Shown here: positions 1 to 19,794 of the stretch, piece after piece
How the letters are laid out: every line of letters begins with the position of its first letter
Position numbering within the stretch: the first letter of the stretch is position 1
Source: Halorussus caseinilyticus
Lineage (GTDB): Archaea; Halobacteriota; Halobacteria; Halobacteriales; Haladaptataceae
Direction of reading: 5' to 3'
NCBI RefSeq assembly: GCF_029338395.1
Contig: NZ_CP119809.1
Location: forward strand, 1-64,000
DNA: 64,000 bases
The notes under the pieces: generated by a model
Told to the model about the DNA's origin: nothing
Databases searched by the model: none
The model's input: only the letters and a program-made list of their open reading frames with translations
Made by a program: the position numbers and the translations under genes

Positions 1-335
1 TCCATGTCGCGGTCCTCGGCGAAGTCGGCGATGACCTTGTGGGGTCGGCCGCCACGGAAGTGTTCCTCGACTTCGAGTCCGCGCTCACGGCCCCGTTCGG
101 CAACGTCTCCGGTCGCGTCGCGGGCGCGGGCTTCGAGTTCGTCCATCTCGCCGAACCGGCCCTGTCGGATGCGCTCTACCTGCTCGGTGCCGAGGCTCAA
201 CTCCGCGGCGTCGGTGTCCACGACGTAGAGCGTATGGACTTCGGCGTCGAACTTCTCGGCGATTTCCAGCGCCTCGCCGACGGCCTGAGCCGCGGTGTCG
301 CTCCCGTCGGTGGGGATGAGGATGCGCTCGTACAT
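1..335 (-). CDS. Universal stress protein (UspA family), 3' end outside window
   Basis: About 111 N-terminal residues are visible, reading from an ATG at 335-333 off the left edge. The protein opens MYERILIPTDGSD, the hallmark first beta strand and loop of UspA proteins, followed by helix AAQAVGEALEIAEKF and strand AEVHTLYVVDT. The ATP-binding glycine motif expected near residue 115-130 would lie outside the window. It follows the symporter gene by 29 bases on the same strand, and small UspA proteins next to secondary transporters are common in haloarchaea. A regulatory role for the transporter is inference. The family call is secure; ligand and function are not. Confidence 0.9.
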   Translation of the reverse strand, partial: MYERILIPTDGSDTAAQAVGEALEIAEKFDAEVHTLYVVDTDAAELSLGTEQVERIRQGRFGEMDELEARARDATGDVAERGRERGLEVEEHFRGGRPHKVIADFAEDRDM

Positions 336-364
336 CTCAGTCGTCCCCCTGCACGTGACTGCCG

Positions 365-2029
365 TCAGACGCGAAGTCGACGGGTCCGACTCTCTTCGTT
401 CGTCAGACCGCCGTCGGTCGAAACCACGTCTTCGGCGCTCTGCTGTTGGCCCATCGGTTCGGGGCTGTGACACTGCCGGACGATGCGCTTGATGCGCTCG
501 GACGGTTCGTCGGTCACCAGCGAGACGCCGATGGTGACGGCGAAGACGATTGGCGTCCCGAGGAGTGCGGCACCGACCGCCGGGAACAGGTCGGCGTAGA
601 CCTGCACGACCGGACCGGCGTCGGTAGCGAAGATGGTTTCGTTGAACACCGCGCCGAGCCAGATGAGCAGTCCCGTCGTCATCCCGGCCAGCGCGCCCTG
701 TCGGTTGGCGTTCTCCCACCAGAGACCGAGGAAGAACATCGGGAACAGCACGAGACCCGCCAGCGAGAACGCCAGCGCGACCAACTCGCCGACCAGCGCG
801 GGCGGGTTGAGCGCGGTCACGGTCACGATTGCGCCCAGCACGATGATGGTCGCGCGGCCGATGATGAGTTGCTGGCGCTGGGTCGCGTCCTCGTTGATGA
901 TGCTCGTGTAGATGTCGTGTGCCGCCGCCGAGGACGCCGCGATGAACAGGCCCGCGGTCGTCGCAATCGCCGCGGCGATGCCGCCCGCCGCGACGAGTCC
1001 GACGAACCACGTCGGCAGGTTCGCCAGTTGCGAGGCCAGCACGACGATAACGTCGCCCTCCGCGCCGCTCATTCCGCTCGCGCCGTACACGTCGCCGACG
1101 TTCTTCGCGTAGAGGTCGGTGCCGAACGCGGCGAACGCCGGGGCGCTCAGGTAGAGCAGACAGATGAAGAACAGACCCCAGACGGTGGACCACCGGGCGG
1201 TCCGCTCGCTCTCGACCGTGTAGAACCGCACCAGCACGTGGGGAAGTCCGCAGGTGCCGACGATGAGCGAGAACGCCGTCGCAATCCAGAGGTAGAACCC
1301 GCCCGTCGAGAACGGTTCGGTGAACTCGGTGTTGAGTTGGCTCAACAGCGCGCCGTACTCGACCTGCGGGAGGAACGTGGAGTAGCCCTGCGTCCACCCG
1401 ACGGCGTAGAGGCCCGCGAGGAACGCCACGATGAGGATGACGTACTGGACCGCCATGTTCTTGGTCGCCCCGAGCATCCCCGACAGCGCCAGATAGCCGA
1501 CCGTGATGGCCATCAACAGGATGACCATGGTGGCGTAGTCGCCGCCGAAGACGTAGATGCCGACCAGACCCATCCCGCGGGCCTGCCCCACCGAGTAGAC
1601 GAACCCGATGAGGATGGTCGTCAACGCGGCGATTGCCCTCGCCGTGTCGGAGTCGAACCGGTCGCCCACGAAGTCGGGCGCGGTGTACTTCCCGAACCGG
1701 CGCATCTGGGCCGCGAGGAAGATGAGCAGGATGAAGTAGCCCGTGGACCACCCGACCACGAACGCGAGTCCGTAGTAGCCCGAGAGGGCGATGAGCGCGG
1801 CCATGCCGAGGTACGACGCCGCGGACATCCAGTTGGCACCGATGGCCATCCCGTTCTCGATGTTCCCGATGGACCGACCAGCGACCCACAGGTCCTCGGT
1901 GTCGGCCACGCGGAAGGCGTAGCCGATGCCGAGGAACAGCAACAGCATTCCGGAGACCATGACCGCCGGAATCAGCTTGAACGAGGCGTTGAGCGCGTCC
2001 GGCAGGAGGTCTAGTGGTGTGAACATCAT
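365..2029 (-). CDS. Sodium:solute symporter, ActP/VC_2705-like (probable acetate/monocarboxylate uptake)
   Basis: 554 residues and about 13 hydrophobic segments, the usual size for the SSS family. It shows LWVAGRSIGNIENGMAIGAN and the following segment NWMSAASYLG, typical of the subgroup that works with a DUF4212 small subunit, and a polar C-terminal tail. It would import a small carboxylate with Na+ across the cytoplasmic membrane. Its ATG overlaps the stop of the small-subunit frame (ATGA), so the two are translationally coupled, and acs lies just upstream in the same direction. Acetate as substrate is inferred from this context; lactate or propionate remain possible. Confidence 0.87.
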   Translation of the reverse strand: MMFTPLDLLPDALNASFKLIPAVMVSGMLLLFLGIGYAFRVADTEDLWVAGRSIGNIENGMAIGANWMSAASYLGMAALIALSGYYGLAFVVGWSTGYFILLIFLAAQMRRFGKYTAPDFVGDRFDSDTARAIAALTTILIGFVYSVGQARGMGLVGIYVFGGDYATMVILLMAITVGYLALSGMLGATKNMAVQYVILIVAFLAGLYAVGWTQGYSTFLPQVEYGALLSQLNTEFTEPFSTGGFYLWIATAFSLIVGTCGLPHVLVRFYTVESERTARWSTVWGLFFICLLYLSAPAFAAFGTDLYAKNVGDVYGASGMSGAEGDVIVVLASQLANLPTWFVGLVAAGGIAAAIATTAGLFIAASSAAAHDIYTSIINEDATQRQQLIIGRATIIVLGAIVTVTALNPPALVGELVALAFSLAGLVLFPMFFLGLWWENANRQGALAGMTTGLLIWLGAVFNETIFATDAGPVVQVYADLFPAVGAALLGTPIVFAVTIGVSLVTDEPSERIKRIVRQCHSPEPMGQQQSAEDVVSTDGGLTNEESRTRRLRV

Positions 2030-2473
2030 TTGTCGGTCCCTCCGTCAGTCGCGGCGGCCTCCGGTTCCGCGCGTCCCGACGAGTGGTCGATGCCGTACTT
2101 CTCGTCCAACTGGTCGCGCTTTCGCGCGTAGACCAGCGAGGAGGAGCGCGCCCGTCGGCGCGCCCATCGCGGTCAGGAGGTAGTGGAGTGGAAAGCCCAG
2201 CATCGTCGTACTCGTCATGAAGTCGGTGGCGAGGTACGTCGCCGTCACCGGTCCGAAGACGAACACGGCCCACGCCGCGAACATCGTCCAGACGATGCGG
2301 AGGTGGTCGCGCATGAACGGAGTCGAGGGCTTGAAGATGTTGACCCGCGCGTCGAGGTAGTCGGTGTCGGCGGTCTGGCGACCGGTCGCTACCCCGCCGT
2401 CGGTCTCGATCTCCGGATTCGGTTCTCGGTTTCGTGAGGGATTGTCTGTCTTCCGTGAGTTATTATCTGACAT
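2026..2473 (-). CDS. DUF4212 small subunit of sodium/solute symporter (frameshifted near 2140)
   Basis: Small two-helix membrane protein (DUF4212) that pairs with the SSS symporter. From ATG 2473 the frame gives an acidic/polar N-terminus, then two membrane segments (IVWTMFAAWAVFVFGPVTA and FPLHYLLTAMGAPTGALLL). At 2137-2148, in a CTC repeat on the coding strand, the frame slips. The continuous frame ends in an unlikely basic tail, whereas a neighbouring frame gives LVYARKRDQLDEKYGIDHS and stops at 2028-2026 inside the symporter start, which is the expected tail. The observed DNA has one base too many or two too few. A second in-frame start lies at 2500; 2473 fits the family better. Confidence 0.8.
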
Positions 2474-2558
2474 AGATTTCCGTGTGTGTTTGTCTGCCAC
2501 GTATTTCGGTTCGCGTCTCGTCCGGATTCGTTTCGACCGTCGAAAAGCGAGGGAGTTC

Positions 2559-4548
2559 TCAGTCGTCGCGTACCTTCGCCTCTATCTCGCTAACCACGTC
2601 GGGATTCCGGAGCGTGGAGGTGTCGCCGAGGTCCTCGTCGTTGGCGATGTCCTCGAGCAGGCGGCGCATGATTTTGCCCGAGCGAGTCTTGGGGAGTTCG
2701 GGGGTGAACACGACCGCCTCGGGCCGAGCGATGGGACCGATGGCGTCCTCGACGCCCTCGATAATCCGGTCGCGCATCTCGTCGTCGCCCTCGTAGCCGT
2801 CCTCGGTGATGACGTAGGCGTAGACCGCCTCGCCTTTCACGTCGTGGTCGCCGCCGACGACTGCGGCCTCTGCCACGCCTTCGACGCCGACGATGGCCGA
2901 TTCGATTTCCATGGTGCCGAGGCGGTGGCCCGAGACGTTGAGTACGTCGTCCACCCGTCCGAGGACCGTGATGTAGCCGTCCTCGTCTATCTTCGCGCCG
3001 TCTTCGGGGAAGTACACCCAGTCGTCGGGGTCGTCCGAATCGGTGTCCGAGTACTCCGCCCAGTACTCCTGAATGTATCGCTCGTCGTTGTTGTACAGCG
3101 TCCGGAGCATCCCCGGCCACGGCTTCTGGACCGTGAGGTGTCCGGCTCGTCCGGCCTCGACTTCCTCGCCGTCCGGGTCGATGACCTGCACGTCGAGGCC
3201 CGGCAGGGGCGGTCCCGCACTTCCGGGTTTCATGTCTTTCACGCCGGGGAGGGTAGTGACCATCATGCCGCCGGTCTCGGTCTGCCACCACGTGTCCACG
3301 ATGGGACAGGACTCGTCGCCGATGTGCTTGTAGTACCACTTCCACGCCCGCGGGTTGATGGGTTCGCCGACCGTCCCTAACAGGCGCAGACTCGACAGGT
3401 CGTGCTGGTCGGGATACTCGGTCCCCCACTTCATGAACGCCCGAATCGCGGTCGGCGCGGTGTAGAGTTGGTCGGCCTCGTACTCCTCGATAATCTCCCA
3501 GAGTCGGTCGCGCTCGGGGTGGTCGGGCGTGCCCTCGTACATCATCGTGGTCGTCCCCAAGGCGAGGGGACCGTAGACGATGTAGGAGTGGCCGGTAATC
3601 CACCCGATGTCCGCCGAGCAAAAGTACGTGTCCTCGGGTTTCACGTCCAGTACCGCTTGGGAGGTCCACGCAGTCCACGCCAGATACCCGCCCGTCGTGT
3701 GCTTGACGCCCTTGGGTTGTCCCGTGGTCCCCGACGTGTACATCAGGAACAGCATATCCTCGGCGTCACGCGACACCGGTTCGACTTCCGCGCCTTCCTG
3801 TTCGGCCACGAGGTCGGCGTACCCGTGGTGGCTCTCGCCCATCGGGTGGTCGTAAGCCTCGCCGAGTCGGTCCACGACAACCACGTCGCTGACCTCGTGT
3901 TCGACGCCTTCCAGACCCTCGTCGGCCTTGGCCTTGTGTTCGAGGGTCGCCGCGCCGGTAGTAGCCGTCGCAGGTCACGAGGTACTCCGAGTCGGCGGCG
4001 TTCATCCGGGTTGCGAGGGCGTCCGCGGAGAAGCCAGCGAAGACGACCGAGTGAGGTGCGCCGATGCGAGCGCACGCGAGCATGGCGATGGGTAGCTCCG
4101 GTACCATCGGCATGTACATCGTCACCACGTCGTCCTCGCCGACGCCCATCTCGCGGAGCGCCGCCGCGAACTCGTTGACCTCGCGGTGGAGCTGTTCGTA
4201 GGTGTAGGTCCGGTTCTCCTCGTCGGTCGGCTCGCCGACCCACTCGATTGCGGCCTCGTCGCCGCGCTCGTCCAGATGCCGGTCTGTGCAGCTCGCCGAG
4301 GCGTTGAGTTCGCCACCGGTGAACCACTCGTAGAACGGCGGGTTCGAGTCGTCCAGCACCGTGTCGTACTCCTCGTTCCAATCGAGCAGGTCCGCGGCCT
4401 GCTCCCAGCACTCGGGCCACTCCTCCTCGAACGTCTCGTAGACGGACTCGTCGGAGACGTTCGCGCCTTCGACGAACGATTCGGGTGGCTCGAATCGCTC
4501 TTGGTCTTCGAGTCGGGCTTCGAGTTCAACGTCTTGTTCTTCCTGCAT
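2559..4548 (-). CDS. acs: Acetyl-CoA synthetase (AMP-forming), frameshifted near 3948
   Basis: Activates acetate with ATP and CoA to acetyl-CoA in the cytoplasm. The N-terminal 190 or so residues (ATG 4548) include the conserved PHSVVFAGFSADALA and YLVTCDGYYRRG. After this the frame changes at 3944-3951 and the C-terminal part continues with DDVVVVDRLGEAYDHP-like sequence, the P-loop YTSGTTGQPKGV and the catalytic lysine motif PKTRSGKIMRRLL. A missing GC pair (restoring RRGDALEHKAK) would repair it and give about 662 residues, normal for the family. A strong TATA box lies before the start. Real loss would leave the intact paralogue at 7072-9024. I favour a sequence error or recent mutation over old decay, because both halves are well conserved. 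Confidence 0.88.
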
Positions 4549-4573
4549 GAGCCACGTTCACAGTCCAATCACT

Positions 4574-4583
4574 ACTATATAAG
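4574..4583 (-). promoter_or_regulatory. TATA box of acs
   Basis: The coding strand reads CTTATATAGTAG, a canonical archaeal TATA element, centred about 30 bases before the acs ATG at 4548. A transcript would start within a few bases of the ATG, as in other leaderless haloarchaeal mRNAs. Confidence 0.6.
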
Positions 4584-4708
4584 TGGGGGAACTAACTATC
4601 CCAAGCCCGGAAAATAGTTGGTTTCAGGCGCTCTCGGACGGATTGGTAAATTTTTCCGACGTTTCGGCGACGGTTCACCGACTCGAACTCGTCCGCGACG
4701 CTAGACAG

Positions 4709-6467
4709 TTAGTGTTGTTCGTCGTTCACGACCCGGTGGTCCGGGTCGTCGAACACGGCGTCTAACACCTTCTGTTGGGCCTTCCGGAGGTGGTTGTGGA
4801 GCGTCGGCGACGAGACGCCCATCGAGGCGGCGAGTTCCTCGGCGGTACTCCCGCGGGGCCACTCGAAGTACCCCGCGAGGTAGGCCGCCCGGAGGACGGC
4901 CCGCTGGCGCTCGGTGATGCGGTCGTGGACCGTCTGCTGGACGCTGGCGGCGCTCCGGACCGGTTCCTCGACTTCGCGCTTCGAGCGTAGGTTCGTCCGG
5001 GGGAACGCGTCTTCGACCGCTTCCACGACCTGCCGAACGTCCACGCGCTGTGAGAAGACGCCCGAGACGTGGGCGACACCGCCCTCCACCGAGAGTTCCC
5101 GGACCGTGCCGCCGCGTTCGACCAGCATCGGCGCGATGGACTCGCCCGAGACGGCGAACTCCAAGAGCGCGCCGTCGCCGTAGTCGCGAATGAGTCGGGC
5201 CTCGTCCACGGCGTCCGCACCGGAGACCCGTTCGAGAACGTCGCCGACCGCGGCCCCGGTCGCCGTGACGAAGTAGAGCAGTGAGTGGTCTTCGACCGGG
5301 ACGACGCCTTCGAGTTCGAACTGGCACCCGAGGTCCGAAGAGGCCGCGACGAGGAACACGCCGGGGTCGGTGGTGCGAAGCGAGAGGGCGACCCCGGTGT
5401 CGGCCAAGAGCAACTGCTTGCGCGCGATGGCCGTGAGCGTCCGACCGACGCGACGGCCCGCATCCGCGAGCAGGGTCCGGTCGGCCGACCCGAAGGCGTC
5501 GTCGGCCACGCAGAGTAGGCCGTGGACCGTCTCGCTCGACCGAAGCGGCGCGACTGCGACCGAACATCCCGACAGCGCGCCACCGGTCGGCGCGCTTACC
5601 ACCGTCACCTCGTGGAAGTCGTCGGGCAGGTCCGCGGCGGCGAGGACTTCGCCGGGAACGTCGTCGGTGCGTTCGGGGGCGGCGCTGGCCCGCGTCTCGC
5701 CGCGGCCGTCGCAAATCCAGACCGCGCGGTACGTGTCGGCGAGGCAGTCGCAGGTCGCCCGTTCCACGTCCTCGCTCGTGGACGCGTCCGCGAGCGCCTC
5801 GCCTAACGCGCCCGCGCGAGAGAGGAGGTCATCGCTTCTCGCGTCGGCGGAGAGAGACGTTCTCGCGGTGGACGGGCGGGCGTCGTTTCGCGGCGGGTCG
5901 GCGCGGTATCGGTCCGGCGACGAGCGGTCGGCGAAGGCGTCGAGGACCTCGCCGGTGGTTGGTTCGTCGAGGTACGGCGCGAGGCTCTGGAGACTCGACC
6001 ACCCGCCGACGGTCTGCACGACCCGCGGGGAGACCCCTTTCTCGGCGAGGAGTCGCCGCGCGAAGTGCTGGCGGAGGTCACGGCAGGTCACGTCCCGCAG
6101 GTCGGCGGTCCGGTCGGCCACGTCGCCGACCAGCATCTGGACGCGCCGGGCGGACACGTCCACCACGGGGTCGTGGCGGTCCACGTCGTTGACGGTGGCG
6201 AACTTCCGGATGTCGTGTGCGATTTCCGGCGGGACGTACGCCTCGCGGGTGTCGCCGTCGCCCTCGGGCACGGTGAGCAGGAAGTGGACTCGCCCGGCGC
6301 GCTCGCTCGCGGAGGTCGGCGGGCCGAATCCGCGTGATTTCGGACGCTCGGAGACCGACGCGCCCGGCCAACGTCACCACGAGGTCCTCGCGGTAGGTCT
6401 CGGTTCGCCGTCGGAGGCGCTCGAACTCCCCGGTCGTCAGGTACTCGCCGCGTGCCTCGCCACCCAT
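4709..6467 (-). CDS. Tyrosine-recombinase-like domain fused to GAF/Bat and HTH_10 regulator (frameshifted near 6296)
   Basis: About 585 residues after joining two frames. Residues 1-200 resemble the catalytic half of a tyrosine recombinase: GLRASEI carries the first Arg, CRDLRQHFARRLL matches the HxLR box with Arg in place of His, and VVQTVGGWSSLQSLAPYL has Trp for the third His plus a Tyr. The middle is GAF-like (CDCLADTYRAVWICDGRG, then VAVAPLRSSETVHGLLCV). The C-terminus is a Bat domain plus HTH_10 (ITERQRAVLRAAYLAGYFEWPRG, then AEELAASMGVSSPTLHNHLRKAQ). The frames meet at 6291-6302 (one extra base). It sits between two acetyl-CoA synthetase genes, so control of acetate use is a reasonable inference; recombinase activity is doubtful. 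Confidence 0.8.
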
Positions 6468-7071
6468 CTCGTTTCGGATTCTCTCAGGAAGCCGAATAAA
6501 ACTTCGGTAACGAGTGTCGGGAGTTCAGACCGCTCCGGGTTGGTCGCTGCACACCGTTACGGCGACTGCAGGGACCGCGACAGCCAAAACGACGGGGAAA
6601 CCGAGACGGAGAAAGCCCCCACCCGGTCGTCGCGGTGCGGTTGCGGCGTGCGGTCCTGATTGGTTCGAGCCTGAAACTAGCTCCGTTGACTCTGCGTCTG
6701 TCGTTGTTTCTGCCGTCGGCGGTGCTGTGCAGTTCGCGATGCTGTGCGGTCCTCATCGGTCCGAGGCTGAAGTCGGTCTCCTCACCGTCGCCGTCGCGGT
6801 TGCGGTCCGATAGATTCGAACAGTAGCTAGCTCTTCGGGTCCTCCTGATTCTCCGCGCGGTCCGTCCCGCCCGAGATTCACCCGTCCCGGCCTTCTCCCC
6901 GACGCTCGCTTCGCTCGCGTCGTCCCCACCCGCGGGAGCAACATTCAAATTGTCCTAAGAATTCTATATATTGTTTAAACACCACCATACGTTTATAGTA
7001 GCCACCGAGACACTTCCGCTCGAAAAATTTCTCTTCTTTAGAAAAACACGAAATGACGCCGGCCCGGACAG
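6468..7071. repeat. Intergenic region with three copies or half-copies of the dispersed repeat
   Basis: No convincing gene. 6631-6684 is a full-length copy of the dispersed repeat (GCGGTGCGGTTGCGG, then CCTGATTGGTTCGAGCCTGA, then ACTAGCTCC). 6745-6780 (GTGCGGTCCTCATCGGTCCG...GCTGAAG) and 6796-6835 (GCGGTTGCGGTCCGATAG...AGCTAGCTC) are diverged partial copies in the same orientation. 6950-7060 is AT-rich, without an evident promoter for a neighbouring gene, since both flanking genes read leftwards and this is the 3' side of acs2. The open frame across the repeats translates into Arg/Ser-rich sequence without gene-like composition. Confidence 0.65.
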
Positions 7072-9024
7072 CTACCTGTCCAGCAACGACTCCAACTCGC
7101 CGACGACCTCCGGGTTCCGGAGGGCGCTGGTGTCGCCGAGGTCCTCGCCGTTGGCGATGGCCGCGAGGTACCGGCGGACGACCTTTCCCGAGCGCGTTTT
7201 CGGGAGCGAGGGCGCGAACGTCACCGCGTCGGGTGCCGCGATGGGACCGATGGCCTCCTCGACCGCGGTCCGAACGCGCCCGCGGAGGGCGTCATCGCCC
7301 GCGACGTTCGACTCGGGACTGACGAAGGCGTGAATCTCCGACTGGCGCACGGCGTCGTCGTCCTCGCCGACCACGACGGCGGCCTCCGCGACCCCTTCGA
7401 CGCCGACGATGGCCGATTCGATTTCGGTCGTGCTGAGTCGCCTGTCCGAGACCTTCAGCACGTCGTCTGCCCGCCCGAGGAGGTGGAGATAGCCGTCCTC
7501 GTCGCGGACCGCGTTGTCACCCGTGGCGTACTGCCACTGGCCGTCCACGGTCCGAGTCCGTCGCGCGCCCCAGTCGGTGCCTTCGCACAGCGACCGGGCC
7601 ATCCCCGGCCACGGGCGAGTGATGACCAGTTGCCCCGCTTCGCCGTCGGCGACGCGGTGGCCTCGCTCGTCCACCACGACCGTCTCGATGCCCGGCAGAC
7701 TCTTGCCGACCGCGCCGGGGCGCATCCGGTCTACGCCGGGGAGCGTCGAGAGAACGATGCCGCCCGTCTCGGTCTGCCACCACGTGTCCACCACCGGACA
7801 CCGGCCGTCGCCGACGTGGTTGCGGTACCAGTGCCACGCCGTCTCGTCTATCGGTTCGCCGACGGTCCCGAGCAAGCGCAGACTCGACAGGTCGTGGCGC
7901 TCGGGGTGCTGTTCGCCCCACTTCATGAACGCCCGGATTGAGGTCGGCGCGGTGTAGAACACGTCTACGCCGTTGCGCTCGATAATCTCCCAGAGGCGGT
8001 CGGTCTCGGGGTGGTCGGGCGTCCCCTCGTACAACACCGTGGTCGCGCCGAGCGCCAGCGGTCCGTACACCGCGTAGGAGTGGCCCGTAATCCACCCCAC
8101 GTCGGCCGAACACCAGTGGGTGTCGTCGGGACCCAAGTCGAGGACGGCATGACTCGTCCACGTGACGTGAGTCAGGTAGCCACCCGTGGTGTGGCGAACC
8201 AGCGTGGGTTCGCCGGTCGTCCCGGAGGTGTAGATGAGAAACAGCAGGTCGTCGCTCGCGCGCGAGACCGGTTCGACTTCCGCGCCCGCATGTGTCTCCA
8301 CGAGGTCGGCGTACGCGCGGTGGTCGCCCACCGGTCGGTCGTCGTCGAGACGGTTCACCACGACCTGTTCGACCGCGTGGCCGACCGACACGCAGGCGTT
8401 GTCGGCCCGCCGCTTCAGGTCGAGGGCGGCCCCGCGCCGGTAGTAGCCGTCGCAGGTTACGAGGTACTCCGAGTCCGCTCCGGAGAGGCGAGTCGCCAGC
8501 GCGTCCGCGGAGAATCCGGCGAAGACGACCGAGTGGGGCGCGCCAATGCGAGCGCACGCGAGCATGGCGACCGGCAACTCGGGAATCATCGGCAGGTAGA
8601 GCGTCACCACGTCGCCCTCTTCGACGCCCAACTCCCGCAGGGCCGCCGCGAACGCGTTCACCTCGTCGGCGAGTTCTCGGTAACTGTACGTCCGGGTCTC
8701 ACCGAGTTTCCCCTCCCACGCGAGGGCCGTCTCGTCGCCGCGTCCCGCCTCGACGTGGCGGTCCACGCAGTTGTACGAGGCGTTGAGTCGCCCGCCGGGG
8801 AACCAGCGAATCGGTCCCTCGTCGCCGTCGTCCTCGTCCAGCACCGCGTCGAACCCGCAGCCCCAGTCCAGCAGGTCGCCGGGCCGCCGCCAGCACTCGG
8901 GCCACCCCGCCTCGCGGAACGCTTCGCGGTCGGCCGCCGTCACGTTCGCCTGCTCTACGAACGACTCCGGCGGCGTCACCCACTCGTGCCCGCCGTCGGT
9001 TTCGTCCGGACTGCTGTCGTCCAT
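7072..9024 (-). CDS. acs: Acetyl-CoA synthetase / acyl-CoA synthetase, second copy (intact)
   Basis: 650 residues in one frame, full length for AMP-forming acetyl-CoA synthetases. It shows ACS N-terminal domain sequence (WPECWRRPGDLLDWG), PHSVVFAGFSADALATRL, YLVTCDGYYRRGAALDLK, the P-loop YTSGTTGEPTLVRHTTGG, the substrate-pocket stretch VDTWWQTETGG and the catalytic PKTRSGKVVRRYL. In the P-loop the usual lysine after GTTG-x-P is replaced (TGEPTLV instead of TGxPKGV), a departure from the first copy that may lower activity or alter substrate choice. It lies upstream of the recombinase-Bat regulator on the same strand. Acetate is the default substrate; propionate cannot be excluded. Confidence 0.9.
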   Translation of the reverse strand: MDDSSPDETDGGHEWVTPPESFVEQANVTAADREAFREAGWPECWRRPGDLLDWGCGFDAVLDEDDGDEGPIRWFPGGRLNASYNCVDRHVEAGRGDETALAWEGKLGETRTYSYRELADEVNAFAAALRELGVEEGDVVTLYLPMIPELPVAMLACARIGAPHSVVFAGFSADALATRLSGADSEYLVTCDGYYRRGAALDLKRRADNACVSVGHAVEQVVVNRLDDDRPVGDHRAYADLVETHAGAEVEPVSRASDDLLFLIYTSGTTGEPTLVRHTTGGYLTHVTWTSHAVLDLGPDDTHWCSADVGWITGHSYAVYGPLALGATTVLYEGTPDHPETDRLWEIIERNGVDVFYTAPTSIRAFMKWGEQHPERHDLSSLRLLGTVGEPIDETAWHWYRNHVGDGRCPVVDTWWQTETGGIVLSTLPGVDRMRPGAVGKSLPGIETVVVDERGHRVADGEAGQLVITRPWPGMARSLCEGTDWGARRTRTVDGQWQYATGDNAVRDEDGYLHLLGRADDVLKVSDRRLSTTEIESAIVGVEGVAEAAVVVGEDDDAVRQSEIHAFVSPESNVAGDDALRGRVRTAVEEAIGPIAAPDAVTFAPSLPKTRSGKVVRRYLAAIANGEDLGDTSALRNPEVVGELESLLDR

Positions 9025-9097
9025 TCGTCTCGAATTTCGCGCAAATAGGGAAAAATCGTTCGCCTCTTGCCGGACGCCCTCCCCGAGTCGGGTCGTG

Positions 9098-11843
9098 TTA
9101 CTCCTCCAACTGCGCTTGCCACTCCTGCACGCGATTCATCAACTCGATTGGCGAGGTGTCGCTCAGGTCGGTGTTCTCCAGTTCCTCCAGTACGGCCTCC
9201 GTCTCGGGGTTTCTCGGCTCCGGGGTCTCTTTTTTTGCCGCCGACTCGCCCGCCGTCCCCGCTTCCTCCGCCGACTCGCCCGACGCATTCGCGTCGGACG
9301 AGTCGGCCGCGCCTTGGAACTGTCCCGACCCGAGGTCGAACACGACCTGCTTCGGTTCGCCGTCGCCCCCGTCACCGCCGTCGCCGCCCCGCACGTCGAT
9401 GGCCTCGTCCTCGCGCAGGCGCTGGAGAACGTCGCGCGACCGCTCTACCACGGGTTCGGGGACTCCGGCCAACTCCGCGACGTGGATGCCGTAGGACCGG
9501 TTCGTCGGCCCGTCCTCGACGGTCCGGAGGAAGGTCACGTCGCCGTCGGACTCGTCCGCGGCGACGTGGACGTTCCGGACGCCCGAGAGTCGGTCGGCCA
9601 GACTCGTGAGTTCGTGGTAGTGGGTGGCGAAGAGCGTAGTGGACTCGATTCGGTTGGCGAGGTACTCCGTCGCGGCCCACGCGATTGAAATCCCGTCGTA
9701 GGTCGCGGTTCCCCGGCCCACCTCGTCCAGAATCACCAGCGAGTCTTCCGTCGCGGAGTGGAGGATGTTACTTAGTTCCTGCATCTCGACCATGAAAGTA
9801 GAGCGACCCTGCGCGAGTTCGTCGAGCGCGCCGACGCGGGTGTAGATGCCGTCAACGAGACCGACCTCGGCGGCGTCGGCCGGGACGAAACTCCCGATTT
9901 GGGCGAGCAGGGTCACGAGCGCGGCCTGTCGCATGTAGGTCGATTTGCCCGACATGTTCGGGCCGGTGACGACCAGAAACCGCCGGTCGTCGTCGGTCCG
10001 GAGGTCGTTGGGGACGAACTCGGTGGTGCGCTCTACGACGGGGTGGCGGCCCGCCTTGATGTCGATGTCGCCCGACTCACGCAACTCGGGTCGCACCCAG
10101 TCGTTCTCGACGGCGTGGACCGCGAGGCTGGCGAGGGCGTCGAGTTCCGCGAGTGCGCGGCCGACCGACTGGAGCAGGTCGGCCCGGTCTGCGACCCGCT
10201 GGCGCAACTCCGAGAAGAGTTCGTACTCCAGTTCGCCGCGGCGCTCTTCGAGGCGGAGGATTTCGCGCTCTCGCTCGTCCAACTCGTCGGTGGTGTAGCG
10301 CTCGGAGTTCTTCAGACTCTTGAGTCGGTCGTAGCGGTCCGGAACCTTCCCGGTCTCCGAGTTGCCGACTTGGATGTAGTAGCCGTCGGTCTTGTTGCGG
10401 TCTACGGTGAGGTGGGTGATGCCGGTCTCGCGCTTCTCGCGGTCGTCCAGCGTTGCGAGCCACTCCTTTGCTTCCTCGTGTTGGTCGATGAGTGCGTCGA
10501 GTTCGTCGTCGTGGCCCCGGCGGAACAGGCCGCCCTCGGTGACGGTGCCGGGCGGGTCCTCGGCGATTGCGCCGAGTTCCTCCCGGAGGTCTGCGGCCGC
10601 CTCGCGGTCGGGCCGCGAGACGATTTCGGCCAGCGGCGAGTCGGCCAGCGTCGGGTCGCTGGCCACGGCGTCGGCGACTTCCGGCAGGAGCGCGAGGGTC
10701 TCGCGGGCGCGCAGGAGGTCGCGGGCGTCCGCGCTCCCGTGGGCCGCCTTGCTCGCCAGTCGTTCGAGGTCGTAGGCCTCGCCGAGGGTCTCGCGGACCG
10801 TCTCGCGGGCCAGCGCGGAGTCGGCGAAGGCGGCCACGCCGTCGGCGCGCGTCCGGAGCGTCGGCAGGTCCCTGCGCGGGCGCTGAAGCCACTCCTTCAG
10901 GAGGCGCTTGCCCGGACTCGTCGCGGTGTGGTCGATGGTCGAAAAGAGCGACCCCTCGCGGTCGCCCTGCATCGTCTCGGTGAGTTCGAGGTTGCGCTGG
11001 GTCGTCGCGTCGAGCGACACGTGGTCGTCGCCCGCGTACGACTGGAGGCGCGTCATCGAGGCTCTGACGCCGGTGCCGGTCCTCGACGTACGACAGGAGC
11101 GCGCCCGCGGCCTGCACTTGCGGCTTTTCCTCCCTGCCTCCGTCGAGACCGACGCTAGCGAGTGTCTCCCGTCCGAACTGTTCTTTGGTCTCGTGGGTCG
11201 CCCGACCGGGTGCGAACGCGTCCGCGCGGTGGAGCGAGAGCGTCGCGTCCGTGCGCTCGCGGACTCGCTCCAAGAAGGCGTCGTCGTTGCGGACCTCCGG
11301 GCCGGGCAGAACCTCCGCGGGGTCGAATCGGTAGAGTTCGGTGAACACGCGGTCTGCGGCGGTCTCGGCGTCCTCGCCGGTGACTTCGGTCACGAGGAAC
11401 CGGCCGGTGGTCACGTCGGCGAAGGCGAGACCGTAGCGGTCGGCGTCCGCACGGACCACGCCGACGAGATACCGGGCGTCGGCGTCCGAGGTTTCGAGCA
11501 GGGTGCCGGGCGTCACGACGCGGGTAATCTCTCTGGCGTGGCCGTCGGGGGTCTCGTGCTGGTCGGCCACCGCGACCCGGTACCCCCGTTCGACCAACTG
11601 CTTGAGGTGCGGAGTGAGTTTGTCCACTGGGACCCCGGCCATGGGGTAGTTCGACCCGTGAGACGACTTCTGGGAGACCTTCAGGTCGAGGAGGTCGGCG
11701 ACTTCCTCGGCGTCGTCACCGAAGAACTCGTAGAAGTCCCCGACCTGCATCACCAGATAGTCGGCGTCGGTCCCGGACTTGAGCGAGAAGAACTCGCCGA
11801 CGATACCCCCGACCTCGCCGTCAGGTCCGGACACGGCGACCAC
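9098..11843 (-). CDS. mutS: DNA mismatch repair protein MutS (frameshifted near 11075)
   Basis: Mismatch-recognition ATPase, about 915 residues when the two frames are joined. The N-terminal frame (GTG 11843) carries the mismatch-reading motif GDFYEFFGDDAEE and the connector domain. At 11070-11080 the frame shifts and continues with SMTRLQSYAGDDHVSLDATT, the clamp, and the ATPase with Walker A TGPNMSGKSTYMRQ, Walker B LVILDEVGRGTATYDG and the FATHYHELT signature. Before the C-terminal helix-turn-helix there is a Gly/Asp- and Glu/Ala-rich linker (around 9240-9400). An upstream ATG at 11874 is out of frame and quickly meets a stop, so the GTG is the best start. One extra base, or two missing, explains the shift. 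Confidence 0.88.
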
Positions 11844-12028
11844 CTCCGAGCGACGAGTGAGCGAACAGAGTCATAGTCGAGTCGGAGGGGCGACGACGAC
11901 TAAAACGGTGCGGGTTCGGGAGGCGGTCGGCGAAACGCCGGACGGGTCGCGCGTTAGGGAAACAGCTAATACGCGAATAGTTGACGATTAATAATGTGGT
12001 TAGGTGGGGCTACCCACGGAGAACAACT

Positions 12029-13234
12029 ATGGAACGACGACGCACGTTTCTGAAAGGCGTCGGAGCGACCGCGTTCGGACTCGCTTCGGGCGTCCGGGGT
12101 ATCGGGGGACAGGGACGCGAGCCGGTGTGCCGCGACGACGGCGTGTGCAAGACGGAGATATACCGCCGCGAGAGCGAACCGCCGCTGTCGGCGTCCGACA
12201 TCGAGGACGCTCAGCGCAGGGTCCTGCGAGCGTACCGTCGCCACACCGACTCGGCCCGCGCTATCAGCGTCGGCCGGGTCGGGCCACTGCTCGAATTTCC
12301 GGTCTACTCGTTCGCGTTCACCATCGACGCGCAGGGCCGGAGTTCGTTCATGGTCGGCGGGCCGGAGGAGTTGAACCGCCCGCCCGGAGAACCGACGACC
12401 GAAGCGCTCGAAACGACGGCCGCGGCCGAGGAGACCACGACCTCGGCCAAACCCGACGCCGACGTTGCGAGTCGCATCGAGTCCGTCGAGCGACTCACGA
12501 GAAACTTACAGGCGACCGCGGAGCGGTCGATTCCGGAAGCCGCGTCGGTGGACGTACTCGCCGCCGACGCAGGCGACGCGGCGACCACCGACGGCGAGAC
12601 CACCGAGGCGGCCCGCGCGATGACCGCGGGTCCGGCGGCGCTCGGGACCGCGACGACCCAACCGGATGTCGAAGTCGAGAATCTGGTCTCGCTCGGGGTC
12701 GCCATCGTCGGGACGGAGGCCGGTGAAATCGTCTCGCGGTCGAGACTCGGACTCGACCGCACTCTGCCCGAACGCCGGTCCCACCTCGTCGTGCAGGACC
12801 TCAACGTCGTGCCGAACCGCGACCCCGGTTGGCGAATCCGGAGTTCGGAGGCGGTCCACGACTGGCGAAGCGGGTACGCGCCGATAATCGCGGCCGCCCA
12901 ACACGAACCCAACGGCGGCACCGGCGGCCCGGTCCAGAGCGTCGGTCTGAGTCTGGGCCTGTCGGGACCGAGCGCGTCGTGGTCGTACTCCCAACCGAAC
13001 GTCACGCGCCGAAACCTCTCGTCGGCGAACACCTCGAAGTGGCGCTGGCAGTGGAAGCGCCCGAGTCGGAACTCGGAGAACTTCAAAATCGGAAGTCTCG
13101 TCGCGGCGTCCGAACCCGCCGAGCGCGGCAACCACGTCGTCGTCGTCCGGTCGGGAGCGACGTTCCAACGCGGGACGTTCCCCTTCGAGCGGACCGGCAA
13201 ACTCCGACTCGCGCAGGCGTTTCGGTACGAGTGA
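12029..13234 (+). CDS. Tat-exported hypothetical protein
   Basis: 401 residues from ATG 12029, chosen because it starts directly with a Tat signal (MERRRTFLKGVGATAFGLAS); an in-frame upstream ATG at 11981 would bury the signal. After export the protein has one Cys pair (CRDDGVCKT, about residues 35-42), a Thr/Glu/Ala-rich low-complexity stretch (about 115-145, PTTEALETTAAAEETTTS), and a C-terminal half rich in beta-type sequence with several Trp residues (SKWRWQWKRPSRNSENFKIG). I do not recognise a family. It stands alone between mutS (divergent) and copZ (convergent), with AT-rich DNA on both sides. Confidence 0.75.
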   Translation: MERRRTFLKGVGATAFGLASGVRGIGGQGREPVCRDDGVCKTEIYRRESEPPLSASDIEDAQRRVLRAYRRHTDSARAISVGRVGPLLEFPVYSFAFTIDAQGRSSFMVGGPEELNRPPGEPTTEALETTAAAEETTTSAKPDADVASRIESVERLTRNLQATAERSIPEAASVDVLAADAGDAATTDGETTEAARAMTAGPAALGTATTQPDVEVENLVSLGVAIVGTEAGEIVSRSRLGLDRTLPERRSHLVVQDLNVVPNRDPGWRIRSSEAVHDWRSGYAPIIAAAQHEPNGGTGGPVQSVGLSLGLSGPSASWSYSQPNVTRRNLSSANTSKWRWQWKRPSRNSENFKIGSLVAASEPAERGNHVVVVRSGATFQRGTFPFERTGKLRLAQAFRYE

Positions 13235-13306
13235 ATGTATTGCTAAAAGAATCTAAAATACACCTAAAGAAATTAATTTTGTTGCTCTACCGCGCTTATT
13301 TGTTGC

Positions 13307-13504
13307 TTAGGCCTTCGCCGTGTAACCCGCGTCCTCGACTGCCGCCACGAGGTCCGCGTCCGAGGCGTCGCCTTCGACGGTCACGCTGTCGGACTCGTTG
13401 TCCGCCTCGGCGTCGGTGACGCCCGGTACGTCCCGAAGCGCGTTTTCGACGTTCTCCTCACAGCCGCCACAGCTCATCCCTTCGACGGTGATTGTCTTTG
13501 CCAT
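13307..13504 (-). CDS. Heavy-metal-associated (HMA) domain protein, CopZ-like copper chaperone
   Basis: 65 residues forming a single ferredoxin-like HMA domain. The metal-binding loop GMSCGGCEENV has the CxxC ligands, and the end VAAVEDAGYTAKA is the usual last strand. It would bind Cu(I) in the cytoplasm and hand it to a P-type ATPase, which is not in this window. The gene is divergent from the broken DUF4396 gene; DUF4396 membrane proteins often sit beside copper-handling genes, so the two may once have worked together. Confidence 0.92.
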   Translation of the reverse strand: MAKTITVEGMSCGGCEENVENALRDVPGVTDAEADNESDSVTVEGDASDADLVAAVEDAGYTAKA

Positions 13505-13597
13505 GTCTCACACTTGGGTCGCGTCCCTTTTCGCGCTTTCCCCTTCGGCTTCGGAACTCGAAACGAGCCGAGGTTAAGAAATTAAGGCTTCGCCGCG

Positions 13598-13642
13598 GCA
13601 ATTCCGTGCCGACGCCGGACTCCGGCGTCGGCACGGAATTGC
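13598..13642. repeat. Perfect inverted repeat, 22-bp arms, 1-base spacer
   Basis: 13598-13619 (GCAATTCCGTGCCGACGCCG...) is exactly complementary to 13621-13642, with a single C between. It lies between the divergent copZ and DUF4396 genes, so it is not simply a terminator at a gene end; it could be an operator, a cruciform or an RNA hairpin in the 5' leader of either gene. Confidence 0.9.
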
Positions 13643-13686
13643 ACGTAGCCAAAATCCCGTAAAGTCCACGGACCGTAGCTTCGGGC

Positions 13687-13922
13687 ATGGGAATCCAGCA
13701 GGCGCTACAGAACGTCCTGACGAATCCGACGTACCTCGCGGCGTGGGGCGCGCTGGTCGCCGTCTCGCTGGCCGTTCTCGTCTGGGGGCTCCGGAAGAAC
13801 AACTCGGAACTGAAGAGCCTCATGAAGTTCGTCTGGGGTTCACGGTGCTGTACTCCGGCCCGTTCGGACTCGTCGGCTACTGGTACTCGGGTCGGACCCA
13901 AATCGACCACGACTCGTTCTGG
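13687..13922 (+). pseudogene. DUF4396 membrane protein, frameshifted and truncated by an IS relic
   Basis: The first frame gives MGIQQALQNVLTNPTYLAAW, one membrane helix and KSLMKFVWG. A base is missing from the G run at 13835-13838, after which the next frame gives FTVLYSGPFGLVGYWYSGR and IDHDSFWR, matching the DUF4396 core. The protein should continue for another 80 or so residues with more membrane helices and a Cys-containing motif; instead the sequence changes abruptly into the C-terminus of a TnpB protein. So there are two lesions: a homopolymer slip (possibly sequence error) and a genuine truncation. Confidence 0.75.
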
Positions 13923-14092
13923 CGGTATCAAGCGAGTAGGAGCGGGACGCTCCGAATCAACGCCTGTGGAGACTGCACTCCCTACGGGAACCACCACGGT
14001 TCCTGCAAAGCGCGTCGTGGAAGCAGGACGCCCTACCCTCAAGGAACGAGCCGTGTCACCGGCGAGTGAGTAGGGTAGGGTAGTTCACAGCC
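13923..14092 (+). mobile_element. Remnant of an IS200/IS605-type element: 3' end of tnpB
   Basis: In the frame ending at TAG 14071-14073 the last 45 or so residues read GAGRSESTPVETALPTGT, then AKRVVEAGRPTLKERAVSPA and SE. This matches the characteristic disordered C-terminal tail of haloarchaeal TnpB (IS1341-type orfB) proteins. The RuvC and zinc-ribbon parts are absent, as is the right-end hairpin normally found after tnpB, so the element is cut on both sides. It interrupts the DUF4396 gene. Recognition rests on this tail from family knowledge. Confidence 0.7.
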
Positions 14093-14375
14093 GAGTCTCG
14101 ATTTCCGCGACGAGTTCCCGCGCCGCCGCGACGTGTTCGTCGGCCGCTTCGTTCCCGGTCTCCTTGACGTTCGAGAGGAGCATCCGGACCTGTTCGACTC
14201 GCTTTTGGACGACCGCTTCGGGTACGTTCGGTCCCGTGGCGTCCTCGCAGACGGCCTCCGCTTCTCCGAGCCACTGGCTCGCCCGCGTCTCGACGGGTAA
14301 CTCGGCGGTGGCTTCGAGGTGGTCGTGGAGGTCGGCGACGAGTGAGGGGAGGTCTGCGTCGTCAGTGGCGGTCAC
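14085..14375 (-). CDS. Small helical haloarchaeal protein of unknown function
   Basis: 96 residues from a GTG start at 14375 (VTATDDADLPSLVADLHDHL). The frame stays open further upstream, but the sequence there is not gene-like and overlaps the next gene on the other strand. The protein is almost wholly helical and charged, with a repeating pattern like a helical hairpin (QKRVEQVRMLLSNVKETGN, EHVAAARELVAEIETRL). No signal or membrane segment. It looks like one of the short conserved Halobacteria-only proteins; I cannot assign a function. Its stop is close to the tnpB relic. Confidence 0.7.
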   Translation of the reverse strand: MTATDDADLPSLVADLHDHLEATAELPVETRASQWLGEAEAVCEDATGPNVPEAVVQKRVEQVRMLLSNVKETGNEAADEHVAAARELVAEIETRL

Positions 14376-14433
14376 GTTCGGCGTTCGTTCTGCTCTCGTA
14401 ACAGTAATGCGGTCGTAGTACGGGCGTCGGAAC

Positions 14434-14907
14434 ATGACCGACGAGCGAGACGACGCGAGCGACGAGAGCGACTCCGAAGACCACGGTCTCCCGCCCGAAG
14501 ACCTCCAATACCCCGAGTTCGTCTTCGAGGAAGGCGAAATCGCCGACGACGGGAGCTCTGAACTCGACGCCGACCTTGACCGGGACGAACTCCGCGCGTG
14601 GGTCGAGGACCTCGCGGGCGGACTCGCCAGCCACGACATCGCGGTCGAATCACCCGACGGCTACGTCACGCTCGGGGTCGCGCCCGAGGGAGCGTCCATG
14701 TCGTTCGACCCCGACGAGTCGGGCGTCGGCGAGTTCGCGGTCACGGTCGAGATGCGCGCGAAGGCGATGTTCGTCGCCGACGACCCGGAGGGTGAGAAGG
14801 TCGGCGCGCGCGGCGGGAAGGGGTTCGTCCCCATCGAGGCGCTGACTGGGGAGAGCGACGACGAGTATCGGTGCTACAACTGGATAGACGACCCGACCGA
14901 CCCTTAG
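14434..14907 (+). CDS. Hypothetical acidic protein, amphi-Trp-like
   Basis: 157 residues. A disordered acidic N-terminus (TDERDDASDESDSEDHG) is followed by a helix (DRDELRAWVEDLAGGLASH) and alternating beta strands (YVTLGVAPEGASMSFDPDE, GEFAVTVEMRAKAMFVADD). The helix followed by four strands resembles the small amphi-Trp domain of haloarchaea, but the match is weak. It is divergent from the 14085-14375 gene, and its stop overlaps the thiD-thiN stop by 4 bases on the opposite strand. Confidence 0.7.
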   Translation: MTDERDDASDESDSEDHGLPPEDLQYPEFVFEEGEIADDGSSELDADLDRDELRAWVEDLAGGLASHDIAVESPDGYVTLGVAPEGASMSFDPDESGVGEFAVTVEMRAKAMFVADDPEGEKVGARGGKGFVPIEALTGESDDEYRCYNWIDDPTDP

Positions 14908-16291
14908 AGCGCGTCCAACAACGCCAGCACGCGCTCGGCCAACTTCTCGCCGTCGCGCGCTACCACCTTCGTCATCGCCTCCTTTCCGTCCTCGCCCCTA
15001 TCGACCACCGCCACAGGCGTCCCCTCGACCGACTCGAAGGCCTGCCGCGCGCCCCACTGCATCGTGGACTCCTCGCGCTCCTTCACACCCTCAGGCTCCG
15101 ACCCCCGGTCGTACTCCGCGACCGGCCAGTCCAGCGAGTCGAGCGCGGCCTCCACGTCGGCGTCGAACCGGCAGTTCGCGGCGAAGCGCAGGTCGGGGTC
15201 GAACTCCCGGCAGGCCAGCAGGAAGCGCGCGACGTGACTCGACGCGCCGAAGCGCACGCCGCGGTTCGGCTTGACTCCCGAGAACGTGCGAGTAATCCGG
15301 CCCTCCACGGCGGCAGTCTCGCTCGCGTCTTCGGCGTAGGGGTCGCGCCGACGACGTTCGTACCGACTTCGGGGACGAGCGCGGACACGTCGGCGTCCAC
15401 GAACTCCCTGACCACCTCTCGGACCTCCTCGGCGGTGGGTTCGCGGGCGGCGCGGTTCCGGCGCTCGACGCCGTGGTGGACCGCGCCGGGTCCCTCGCCC
15501 ACGTCGAGGGGGTAGCGGACCGCGCGAGTCACGAACTCGACGCTCGTCTCGACTGCATTATTAAGGTTGTACCCACGCGCGAAATTGCTTGCGACCGCGG
15601 CCGAGAGCGCGCACCCCGACCCGTGAGTCGCGTCGGTGTCGATGCGGGAGTGTCTGGCCGTGCGCGTCCCCTCGGGCGTCACCAACACGTCGCGGACCGT
15701 CTCGCCGGGGACGTGTCCGCCCTTCAGGAGGGCGGCGTCGGCACCCATCGAGACCAGTCGCTCGCCCGCCGCGATTGCGGACTCGCGGTCCGCGACTGCC
15801 ACGTCGGTCAGCACTTCCGCTTCGTCGGCGTTGGGAGTCACCAGTGCGGCCTCGGCGACGAGGTTCGCGTAGGCGTCCTCGGCCGCAGGGTCGAGCAAGC
15901 GGTCGCCAGAGGCGGCCACCATCACGGGGTCCACGACGACCGGAAACGCGGCGTCCGCGGCGCGGTCGGCCACCGCCTCCACGATGTCGGCGGTGGCGAG
16001 CATCCCGGTCTTGGCGGCCCGCACGTCGAAGTCGTCTGTCACGGCGTCGATTTGGGCCGCGACCTCTTCGGCGGGCAGGACGTGGGTCGATTCGACGCCG
16101 CGGGTGTGCTGTGCGGTGACGGCCGTCACTGCGCTCGTCCCGAAAGCGCCGTGGGCCTCTATGGTCTTGAGGTCGGCCTGCACGCCCGCGCCGCCGCCGG
16201 AGTCGCTCCCCGCGACGGTCAGCACCACGGGTTTCTCGACGGGGGACGGGACGCGGGTGTCGCCGGTGACGGGTCGGCTCTCGTCGCTCAT
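14904..16291 (-). CDS. thiD: Phosphomethylpyrimidine kinase ThiD fused to ThiN thiamine-phosphate synthase (frameshifted near 15340)
   Basis: Two-domain thiamine enzyme of about 462 residues. The first 260 are ThiD, with [36 protein letters not shown] and the anion-hole region [19 protein letters not shown]; it phosphorylates HMP and HMP-P. The C-terminal 190 are ThiN, joining HMP-PP to thiazole phosphate ([37 protein letters not shown]). Between them a frameshift at the run 15339-15342 (one base missing) turns NVVGATPYAED into an unrelated frame; restoring the base makes one protein, as in other haloarchaea. Such thi genes are often under a TPP riboswitch, but I see no clear one upstream. 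Confidence 0.88.
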
Positions 16292-16472
16292 TTACTCGGT
16301 GGTAAAACGAAGTGGTACTTAGAGGTGGGTGGTCGGGTGGCGTCGGTGCTTCCGGGAAACGAGTACGCTGCGGGATGGAACTGGCGCACACGAAATAAGG
16401 AAAATGACGTGTTTCGCGTGCGTGCGAGAAATTTTCCACTATCGACTTCTACCCAGTGCATACGAGGAACCC

Positions 16473-16880
16473 GTGACTGAAATATCCGATATTGTCTACA
16501 CCGACTATCTATGTACTCGAATTCTCCGGTACGTGAAGGTCGAACGAGGCGAAGTCGCGGCGTTCGTCGTCGAGTTAGAGTACGGTCTCGACGACGAGTT
16601 CTACTGGCCCTGTGAGTGCGACGACTGGCGACCAGTCGCTCGCTTCGACCACAATCCCGCCGCGCCGGACGGCAACGACATCCGCGAGGAAGGTCTCCAC
16701 CTCGACATATATCGGGGCGACGACGAGTACTACTCTACGGACGACTTCCCGTTCGTGACCGTGGAGAAAGCGCCGCGCTGGTGTGAAGAGTATCTCTTGG
16801 ACAATCTGGACTTCTTGCTCGAACGCTACGAGGAGTTCAACGACCTCGGCGGTCGATGGTCGGTCACGCTTCGTCGGTAG
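16473..16880 (+). CDS. Hypothetical protein (DUF7718-like)
   Basis: 135 residues from GTG 16473 (VTEISDIVYTDYLCTRILRY); an in-frame ATG at 16404 is possible but adds a Cys/Phe-rich stretch that is not typical. The protein is compact and acidic, with repeating beta-type segments (EVAAFVVELEYGLDDEFYWP, WRPVARFDHNPAAPDGNDIR) and a His-containing motif HLDIYRGDDEYY before a C-terminal helix. It resembles a family of small haloarchaeal proteins of unknown role (DUF7718), moderately sure. The 3' end overlaps the small gene on the other strand by 17 bases. Confidence 0.7.
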   Translation: MTEISDIVYTDYLCTRILRYVKVERGEVAAFVVELEYGLDDEFYWPCECDDWRPVARFDHNPAAPDGNDIREEGLHLDIYRGDDEYYSTDDFPFVTVEKAPRWCEEYLLDNLDFLLERYEEFNDLGGRWSVTLRR

Positions 16881-17013
16881 ATTCCCACGTCTGTTCGCTC
16901 GCGTCCGGAATGGGTTCCTCGTCGAAGTCCGGTTCGAACTCCTCGACGGGCCGCCCCGTCTCTCGACTCAGTTGCTCAGCGGCCGTCTCGTCGTCTTCTT
17001 GTTTGAGTGCCAT
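16864..17013 (-). CDS. Very small acidic protein (49 aa)
   Basis: ATG 17013 to TGA 16866-16864, 49 residues: MALKQEDDETAAEQLSRETG, then RPVEEFEPDFDEEPIPDASE and QTWESTDEA. About a third of the residues are Asp or Glu, and codon usage is like that of real haloarchaeal genes (strong G/C at third positions). No domain is recognised; it is probably intrinsically disordered. It is convergent with and overlaps the DUF7718-like gene, so the two could be a pair. Confidence 0.55.
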   Translation of the reverse strand: MALKQEDDETAAEQLSRETGRPVEEFEPDFDEEPIPDASEQTWESTDEA

Positions 17014-17193
17014 TGGTAGAACCCACTTATCTCGGTTGTAACGTTGTTATAGACGGCGTAAATACCTGATGGTGGTCTCAGACCGAGAAAGCAGTCCGAG
17101 TAAGCCGGTACTACTGCCAGTCGGATTTCGTAGTCGAACTTCCTCACGCTCGTATGGACGCCCTTTTAATGCCGCGAGACCCTATCTACGTCC

Positions 17194-18165: not shown

Positions 18166-18211
18166 CGTCCCGGTACGTCGAACTGACTACGACAGGAAGG
18201 CTTCCCCGAGT

Positions 18212-18243
18212 CGGCGCGGCGCTTGCGCGCAAGCGCCGCGCCG
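18212..18243. repeat. Perfect palindrome, 16-bp arms, no spacer
   Basis: CGGCGCGGCGCTTGCG (18212-18227) is followed at once by its exact reverse complement (18228-18243). It lies 46 bases after the NOG1 stop and before the convergent DUF389 gene. The position suits a shared terminator, but there is no T tract directly beside it, and archaeal termination usually needs one; AT-rich DNA follows only at 18330-18390. Confidence 0.9.
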
Positions 18244-18390
18244 GGGACGACCCGCATCCCCCGAGCAGTCGGCGTTTCGCGCCGGTGACGCCAGCGCGCG
18301 CCGAAACTGGCCTACGCGTCCGTGGAAAAGGGATATGTTTCTTACGCACTTCTATAGCGTTCTTAGACATTTCTATACCTGTCCTTTAAC

Positions 18391-19734: not shown

Positions 19735-19794
19735 AGCAGAGTCACGCCCTACCGACGCAAAAGGATTCAGGCCCCGGGGACGCGCCCGGCGGCG

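Follow-up and report, generated by a model that had tools for sequence, protein, structure and literature searches.

What a protein with the fold of a tyrosine recombinase is doing between two acetyl-CoA synthetase (acs) genes is the question raised by this locus of Halorussus caseinilyticus. It lies within a stretch of 64,000 nucleotides, referred to here as the window, and reads acs2, regulator, acs1, DUF4212, symporter on the minus strand (Table 1), with both of the flanking acs genes that the original prediction had named in place. Among the named loci, which come from many genera, acs genes on the strand of the regulator were found on both flanks in 47 of 53 and on at least one flank in all 53, most of those without both being cut by a contig end. 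In 60 sampled genome loci, acs was present on both sides in 56, on one side in two and on neither in two, the last being free-standing proteins. DUF4212 and then the symporter ActP usually follow downstream of acs-regulator-acs. Haloferax megaplasmids carry acs, 'bacterio-opsin activator domain-containing protein', acs, DUF4212, symporter and universal stress protein, one after the other, and plasmids of Haladaptatus have acs-regulator-acs-DUF4212-symporter, as in Haloferax. The recombinase-like domain was detected at E ≤ 1e-10 in 225 of the 293 genomes of the order, a count that includes some free-standing proteins.

Table 1. Features of the regulator locus, in positions of the window.
Feature	Position	Strand	Basis and remarks
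Sodium:solute symporter, homologue of ActP (acetate transporter)	365..2029	-	Haloferax has the same order, annotated VC_2705 family symporter
DUF4212 small membrane protein beside ActP	2045..2500 (upper end approximate)	-	Frame-broken near 2138; conserved next to ActP
acs1, AMP-forming acetyl-CoA synthetase, probable target	2559..4548	-	ORFs; frame-broken near 3944 in the window; intact 663-aa copy in the terminal overlap (L031)
Promoter element TTGGGATAGTTAG-N8-CTTA, putative operator, into the acs1 TATA box	4580..4604	-	Halorussus alignment, locus counts
Regulator gene	4709..6467	-	586 aa in frame; recombinase CAT-like + GAF + BAT + HTH_10; ORFs, overlap copy, orthologs
HTH_10 DNA-binding domain	4763..4918	-	PF04967 E 3.6e-21
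BAT domain	4937..5401	-	PF15915 E 5.9e-43
GAF sensor region, approximate boundaries	5417..5863	-	Weak PF01590 match, E 0.013
Recombinase CAT-like domain, residues 1-183	5921..6467	-	PDB profile, AlphaFold pLDDT 88.8, VIA Z 19.9 to 4a8e, residue census
acs2, the other acetyl-CoA synthetase-like gene, upstream of the regulator	7072..9024	-	Conserved upstream position

In the letters of the window the regulator is present as two ORFs in different frames, the N-terminal part at 6078-6467 and the rest at 4709-6271. The contig (3.48 Mb) has an untrimmed circular overlap, its last ~37 kb repeating its first ~37 kb, and this overlap provides an additional consensus for the same DNA. Over the 20 kb compared (window 1-20000) it is 99.85% identical to the start of the contig, differing at ~30 positions of the alignment per 20 kb, mostly by small indels. 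A 2-base indel at 6302 separates the window copy of the regulator from the overlap copy, where the gene is in frame, and full-length orthologs in other genomes are single frames. The frameshift can therefore be attributed to an error of the assembly consensus, so that the gene encodes one protein of 586 residues. Small indels likewise break DUF4212 (2138), acs1 (3944) and mutS (11080) in the window copy, but not in the overlap copy, and these too are therefore read as consensus errors; the overlap copy has slips of its own at other sites. A real frameshift in the regulator, a pseudogene or a programmed frameshift was ruled out by the overlap copy and the intact orthologs. The single protein originally proposed thus holds for position, strand and product, though not for the window letters as one open frame, and its N-terminal part does not belong to a separate gene.

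The C-terminus of the regulator matches HTH_10 (PF04967) with 75.2 bits against a curated cut-off of 23.1, and the BAT domain (PF15915) is matched with 146.8 bits against a cut-off of 25.8. The GAF match of the window protein, at 16.5 bits against a cut-off of 22.4, is weak, while the Haloferax ortholog has GAF_2 over the cut-off (E 5e-7) and a further ortholog, from genome G024, has PAS over the cut-off. BAT and HTH_10 of the predicted GAF/Bat/HTH_10 module are therefore secure, and GAF is a weak match. This genome contains 18 BAT matches, among them one at window 50676-51098 on the plus strand, in an open frame of 222 residues.

At the N-terminus of the frame-intact regulator PF00589 scores over its cut-off (33.6 against 27.1 bits). 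A profile of 19 N-terminal domains, searched against the PDB, matched XerA of Pyrococcus abyssi (PaXerA, 4a8e; E 7e-15) and that of T. acidophilum (E 1.6e-7). The AlphaFold model of the domain (pLDDT 88.8, pTM 0.85) resembles XerA 4a8e with a Z of 19.9 and an rmsd of 2.4 Å over 160 residues, and more weakly two repressors with the recombinase fold, SroF (Z 14.2) and MrpR/YopR (Z 11.8). Profile and structure prediction, the latter having been suggested as the check, thus confirm the predicted tyrosine-recombinase CAT fold. Only the CAT half of a recombinase was found in the protein; the core-binding (SAM-like) domain is absent, the CAT domain beginning by residue ~7 with at most 19 in-frame codons upstream of the start. 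The full-length model has a pTM of 0.38 and the domain arrangement is therefore not readable from it.

The catalytic positions of the window protein are R-D-R-R-W-Y: as had been predicted, Arg, Arg and Tyr are kept, and Arg and Trp stand at two His positions. A residue census was taken over 125 distinct sequences of the family, of which at least two (L149 and L155) are free-standing rather than fused. The catalytic Lys is present in none of the 125, nor within four columns on either side, a family-wide loss that had been missed, and the hairpin that bears it is shortened in the fused proteins. Arg I is kept in 116 and Arg II in all 125, Trp occupies the His/Trp position in 116, and the His of HxxR is found in three, at least two of which are L149 and L155. 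Tyr is kept in 90, and so is absent in about a quarter, with F, H, L, S and others in its place, and on the tree its state changes ~14 times among the fused proteins. The Haloferax regulator (L156 6971-8734), with T-D-R-R-W-L, has a very degenerate set in which Arg I and Tyr are lost too. Judged by these residues the recombinase domain is predicted to be catalytically dead. Residual strand transfer had been called possible but unlikely; it is far less likely than that, since Lys is gone in all members, Tyr in about a quarter, and the core-binding domain altogether.

Outside the fused family, the closest relatives to be found were 'site-specific integrases' of ~200 residues on haloarchaeal plasmids (pNRC100, PHS4, pNG200, pNG400 and others). 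These short proteins, for example VNG_RS12805 of pNRC100, resemble the N-terminal domain in consisting of CAT only and in having the GGW motif. Unlike the fused domain, they stand free, carry the full R-K-H-R-W-Y set (14 of 14 sequences examined) and have a longer Lys hairpin with GKDT (GKDT.GNGGKPR), which in the phage LSV-48N reads GKSG. As these intact relatives also have Trp, this residue is inherited, and its earlier reading as a sign of decay was rejected. The free-standing relatives form one clade (support 100/99). The AU test does not reject (p 0.178) that the fused proteins are monophyletic with respect to XerA, and a single origin of the fusion is unproven because XerA, on a long branch, is placed among the fused sequences. 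A direction from free integrase to regulator is suggested by the intact residues of the free relatives and not by a rooted tree. The best explanation of the sequences is that the N-terminal domain is akin to short free-standing recombinases now found on haloarchaeal plasmids, and that Lys, His and then Tyr were lost inside a GAF-BAT-HTH_10 protein. A search of viral contigs with a free-standing relative gave no usable match, and the phage search gave one distant match, LSV-48N. On both H. salinarum plasmids, pNRC100 (L159 821-3106) and PHS4 (L160 821-3106), the short integrase lies near an extra gene for a TATA-box-binding protein.

The gap between the regulator and acs1 contains, in 12 species of Halorussus, a near-invariant block TTGNNATAGTTAGT directly before a TATA-like ACTTATATA. 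A looser pattern, [TC]AN[TC]TAG-N8-[CT]TTA, was derived from some two dozen sequences. Of 128 such gaps, 111 contain it on the gene strand, against 0.1 expected from dinucleotide shuffles, and none contains it on the other strand; 17 gaps are without it. It is matched by 81 of 98 distinct sequences that had no part in writing it, and positions -6/-5 are TT in 96-99%, though they lie outside the pattern. One match lies beyond the gap in 98 loci totalling 1.1 Mb, and in these neither acs2 nor the regulator itself is preceded by the element. Seven genomes carry two acs1 paralogs, and in them the element is present at all seven copies in the regulator locus, at -50 from the start codon, and at none of the seven distant copies; nor is it found at acs1 in any of four genomes of the same genus that lack the regulator. 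The element thus goes with the regulator and not with acs1 as such. Together with the class-wide synteny, this conserved element in the promoter of the probable target lends strong support to the prediction of a recombinase fold inside a regulator of acetate genes.

The exact element occurs only once in the H. caseinilyticus genome and the four further matches of the looser pattern, which are AT-rich, look like chance, so that a wider regulon was rejected. In one genome a second copy of the element (L207, G037 C11 93500-97895) again stands before an acs1-ActP pair, at a contig end. In the genome of the window a second acs1 paralog (C1:961616-963595, L198), which is 91% identical, has a different and also conserved promoter with a CCAACNTTTATTGCTC-like sequence. 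At or just past the stop codon of the regulator there is a conserved block, roughly GACACTAAYTRYTTARCCTC (window 4705-4713; 12 Halorussus species), which in part repeats the promoter core ATAGTTAGT in inverted orientation. At window 4614-4623, upstream of the element, AACCAACTAT forms an imperfect inverted repeat with the element and is not conserved in relatives. The element presumably also resembles the Bat UAS of bop, a likeness that was not used as evidence.

Sequence comparison and structural modelling together make it probable that the protein is dedicated to regulating transcription of acs1-DUF4212-actP, the haloarchaeal operon for acetate uptake and activation, and contains a domesticated, dead recombinase domain. 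That a broken gene, or two neighbouring genes, had been taken for one protein would agree with the frameshift in the window letters, but is very improbable given the intact frame of the overlap copy, the single-frame orthologs and the similar indels in acs, DUF4212 and mutS of the same assembly. Even more remote is an active or residually active tyrosine recombinase working at the locus: the fold, the Arg I, Arg II and Tyr of the window protein and the classing of the family as recombinases in a review (PMC8371274) would fit it, but it is rejected on the census, with Lys absent and its hairpin shortened, His replaced and Tyr replaced repeatedly, and is opposed too by the Haloferax member, the missing core-binding domain and an acs-regulator-acs order fixed on one strand across the class. 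It also seems unlikely that some other acetate-responsive factor, or a special TFB/TBP class of promoter, accounts for the element, with the Bat-like protein regulating something else or only itself. The element does abut the TATA/BRE region, and protein and element are linked indirectly; against this, it is absent from the acs1 paralogs of the same genomes and from genomes without the regulator, and is essentially confined to one site per locus.

Within the preferred reading, that of a dedicated acetate regulator, the dead domain may or may not touch DNA. Its most conserved columns include R26, R75, R108, R109, Q111, M112, L132 and R133, and in helix 107-120 the residues R108, R109, Q111 and M112 are 97-100% conserved. 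From the order of secondary-structure elements this helix would correspond to helix J of Cre, the helix that reads the major groove. The pattern fits a contact with DNA kept without cleavage. The net charge of the domain is negative, with a median of -3.9 per 100 residues compared with about -8 for GAF and BAT, so that it is not basic. This charge, the want of a core-binding domain with which a C-clamp on DNA could be closed and the invariance of the HTH recognition region (P561, T562, H564, H566, L567 and R568), shared by the TAG core of the element, would suit a regulator in which HTH_10 alone reads the element and the recombinase-like domain only dimerises or binds a ligand or protein. This is quite possible, though short of probable, and the presence of R108, R109, Q111, M112 and both phosphate-binding Arg among the top conserved columns is hard to explain by it. 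More tentatively than the regulatory role itself, it can be proposed that an integrase of the plasmid type was domesticated early in Halobacteria to give a class-wide acetate regulator, whose dead domain would read the variable half (TTN4) of a bipartite operator and HTH_10 the YANYTAG half.

Two aspects of this regulator are already known. Its domain combination is that of fam30-04, a recombinase family tabulated by Badel et al (2021; PMC8371274) with the same string of Phage_integrase, BAT and HTH_10, and GAF_2 in some; with these domains in one larger protein, the regulator fits the family by domain content. In the available part of that review, fam30-04 is listed by domain content as recombinases, without the loss of catalysis, the acs neighbourhood, the promoter element or a regulatory role. 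The conversion of a recombinase to a repressor is known from MrpR, whose recombinase fold now serves in regulation through DNA binding (PMC10516654). Both MrpR/YopR (phage SPbeta) and SroF (phi3T) use the fold in this way; the fold and the loss of catalytic residues are also seen here, DNA binding being putative. MrpR, however, keeps the core-binding domain, Lys and Tyr, whereas the regulator has no core-binding domain, and MrpR and SroF are phage repressors, whereas here the CAT domain alone is joined to a putative sensor and an HTH, and the setting is a metabolic operon. Bat, a PAS/GAF and HTH protein that acts on bop (PMC3184054, PMC2253796), and other GAF/PAS-BAT-HTH_10 regulators combine a sensor, BAT and a C-terminal HTH_10, as the protein here would with its putative GAF sensor; unlike Bat, the protein has a dead recombinase CAT added at its N-terminus, and acetate genes are its probable target. 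The class-wide acetate module, the death of the domain with its kinship to plasmid integrases, and the cis-element appear to be undescribed in the literature searched.

The genes downstream of the regulator are the same operon as acs7-HVO_A0155-ssf-uspA28 of H. volcanii, which is transcribed as a single 4.6-kb RNA that appears on acetate only, and ActP has been shown to transport acetate (PMC7746861). In H. mediterranei, HFX_5129 and HFX_5131 rise 3.5- and 3.1-fold on acetate (PMC11784441). Since acs8 is HVO_A0158 and acs7 is HVO_A0156, the H. volcanii regulator between them is presumably HVO_A0157; the available portions of both papers make no mention of the gene between the acs genes, and none of HVO_A0157 or HFX_5130 was found in the literature searched. 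In the mechanism proposed, the GAF/BAT part would sense a cue linked to the availability of acetate, and HTH_10 would bind TTN4-YANYTAG-N8, which immediately precedes the acs1 TATA box; the recombinase-fold domain would assist, either clamping the DNA a second time or providing an interface for dimerisation. Archaeal activators act just upstream of TATA. This position of the element and the induction by acetate favour activation, and the bound regulator would most likely recruit the transcription machinery during growth on acetate, with a rise in transcription of acs1-DUF4212-actP. The fold, the loss of catalytic residues, the class-wide gene order and the position-locked element that accompanies the regulator locus are observed, and the binding to the element, the positive sign of the regulation, the ligand and what the N-terminal domain does are inferred.

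Acetate induction has been documented in H. volcanii and H. mediterranei with no regulator named in the available text of either report (PMC7746861, PMC11784441), and the locus supplies candidates for both the regulator and the operator of such acetate-specific induction in haloarchaea. A listed 'recombinase family' would be reclassified as probable transcription factors, and the recruitment of recombinases for regulation would gain an example from archaea that belongs to a metabolic operon, the solved cases found being phage repressors. If the dead domain of the regulator does read half of the operator, two unrelated DNA readers would be combined in one transcription factor whose position is locked to the TATA box.
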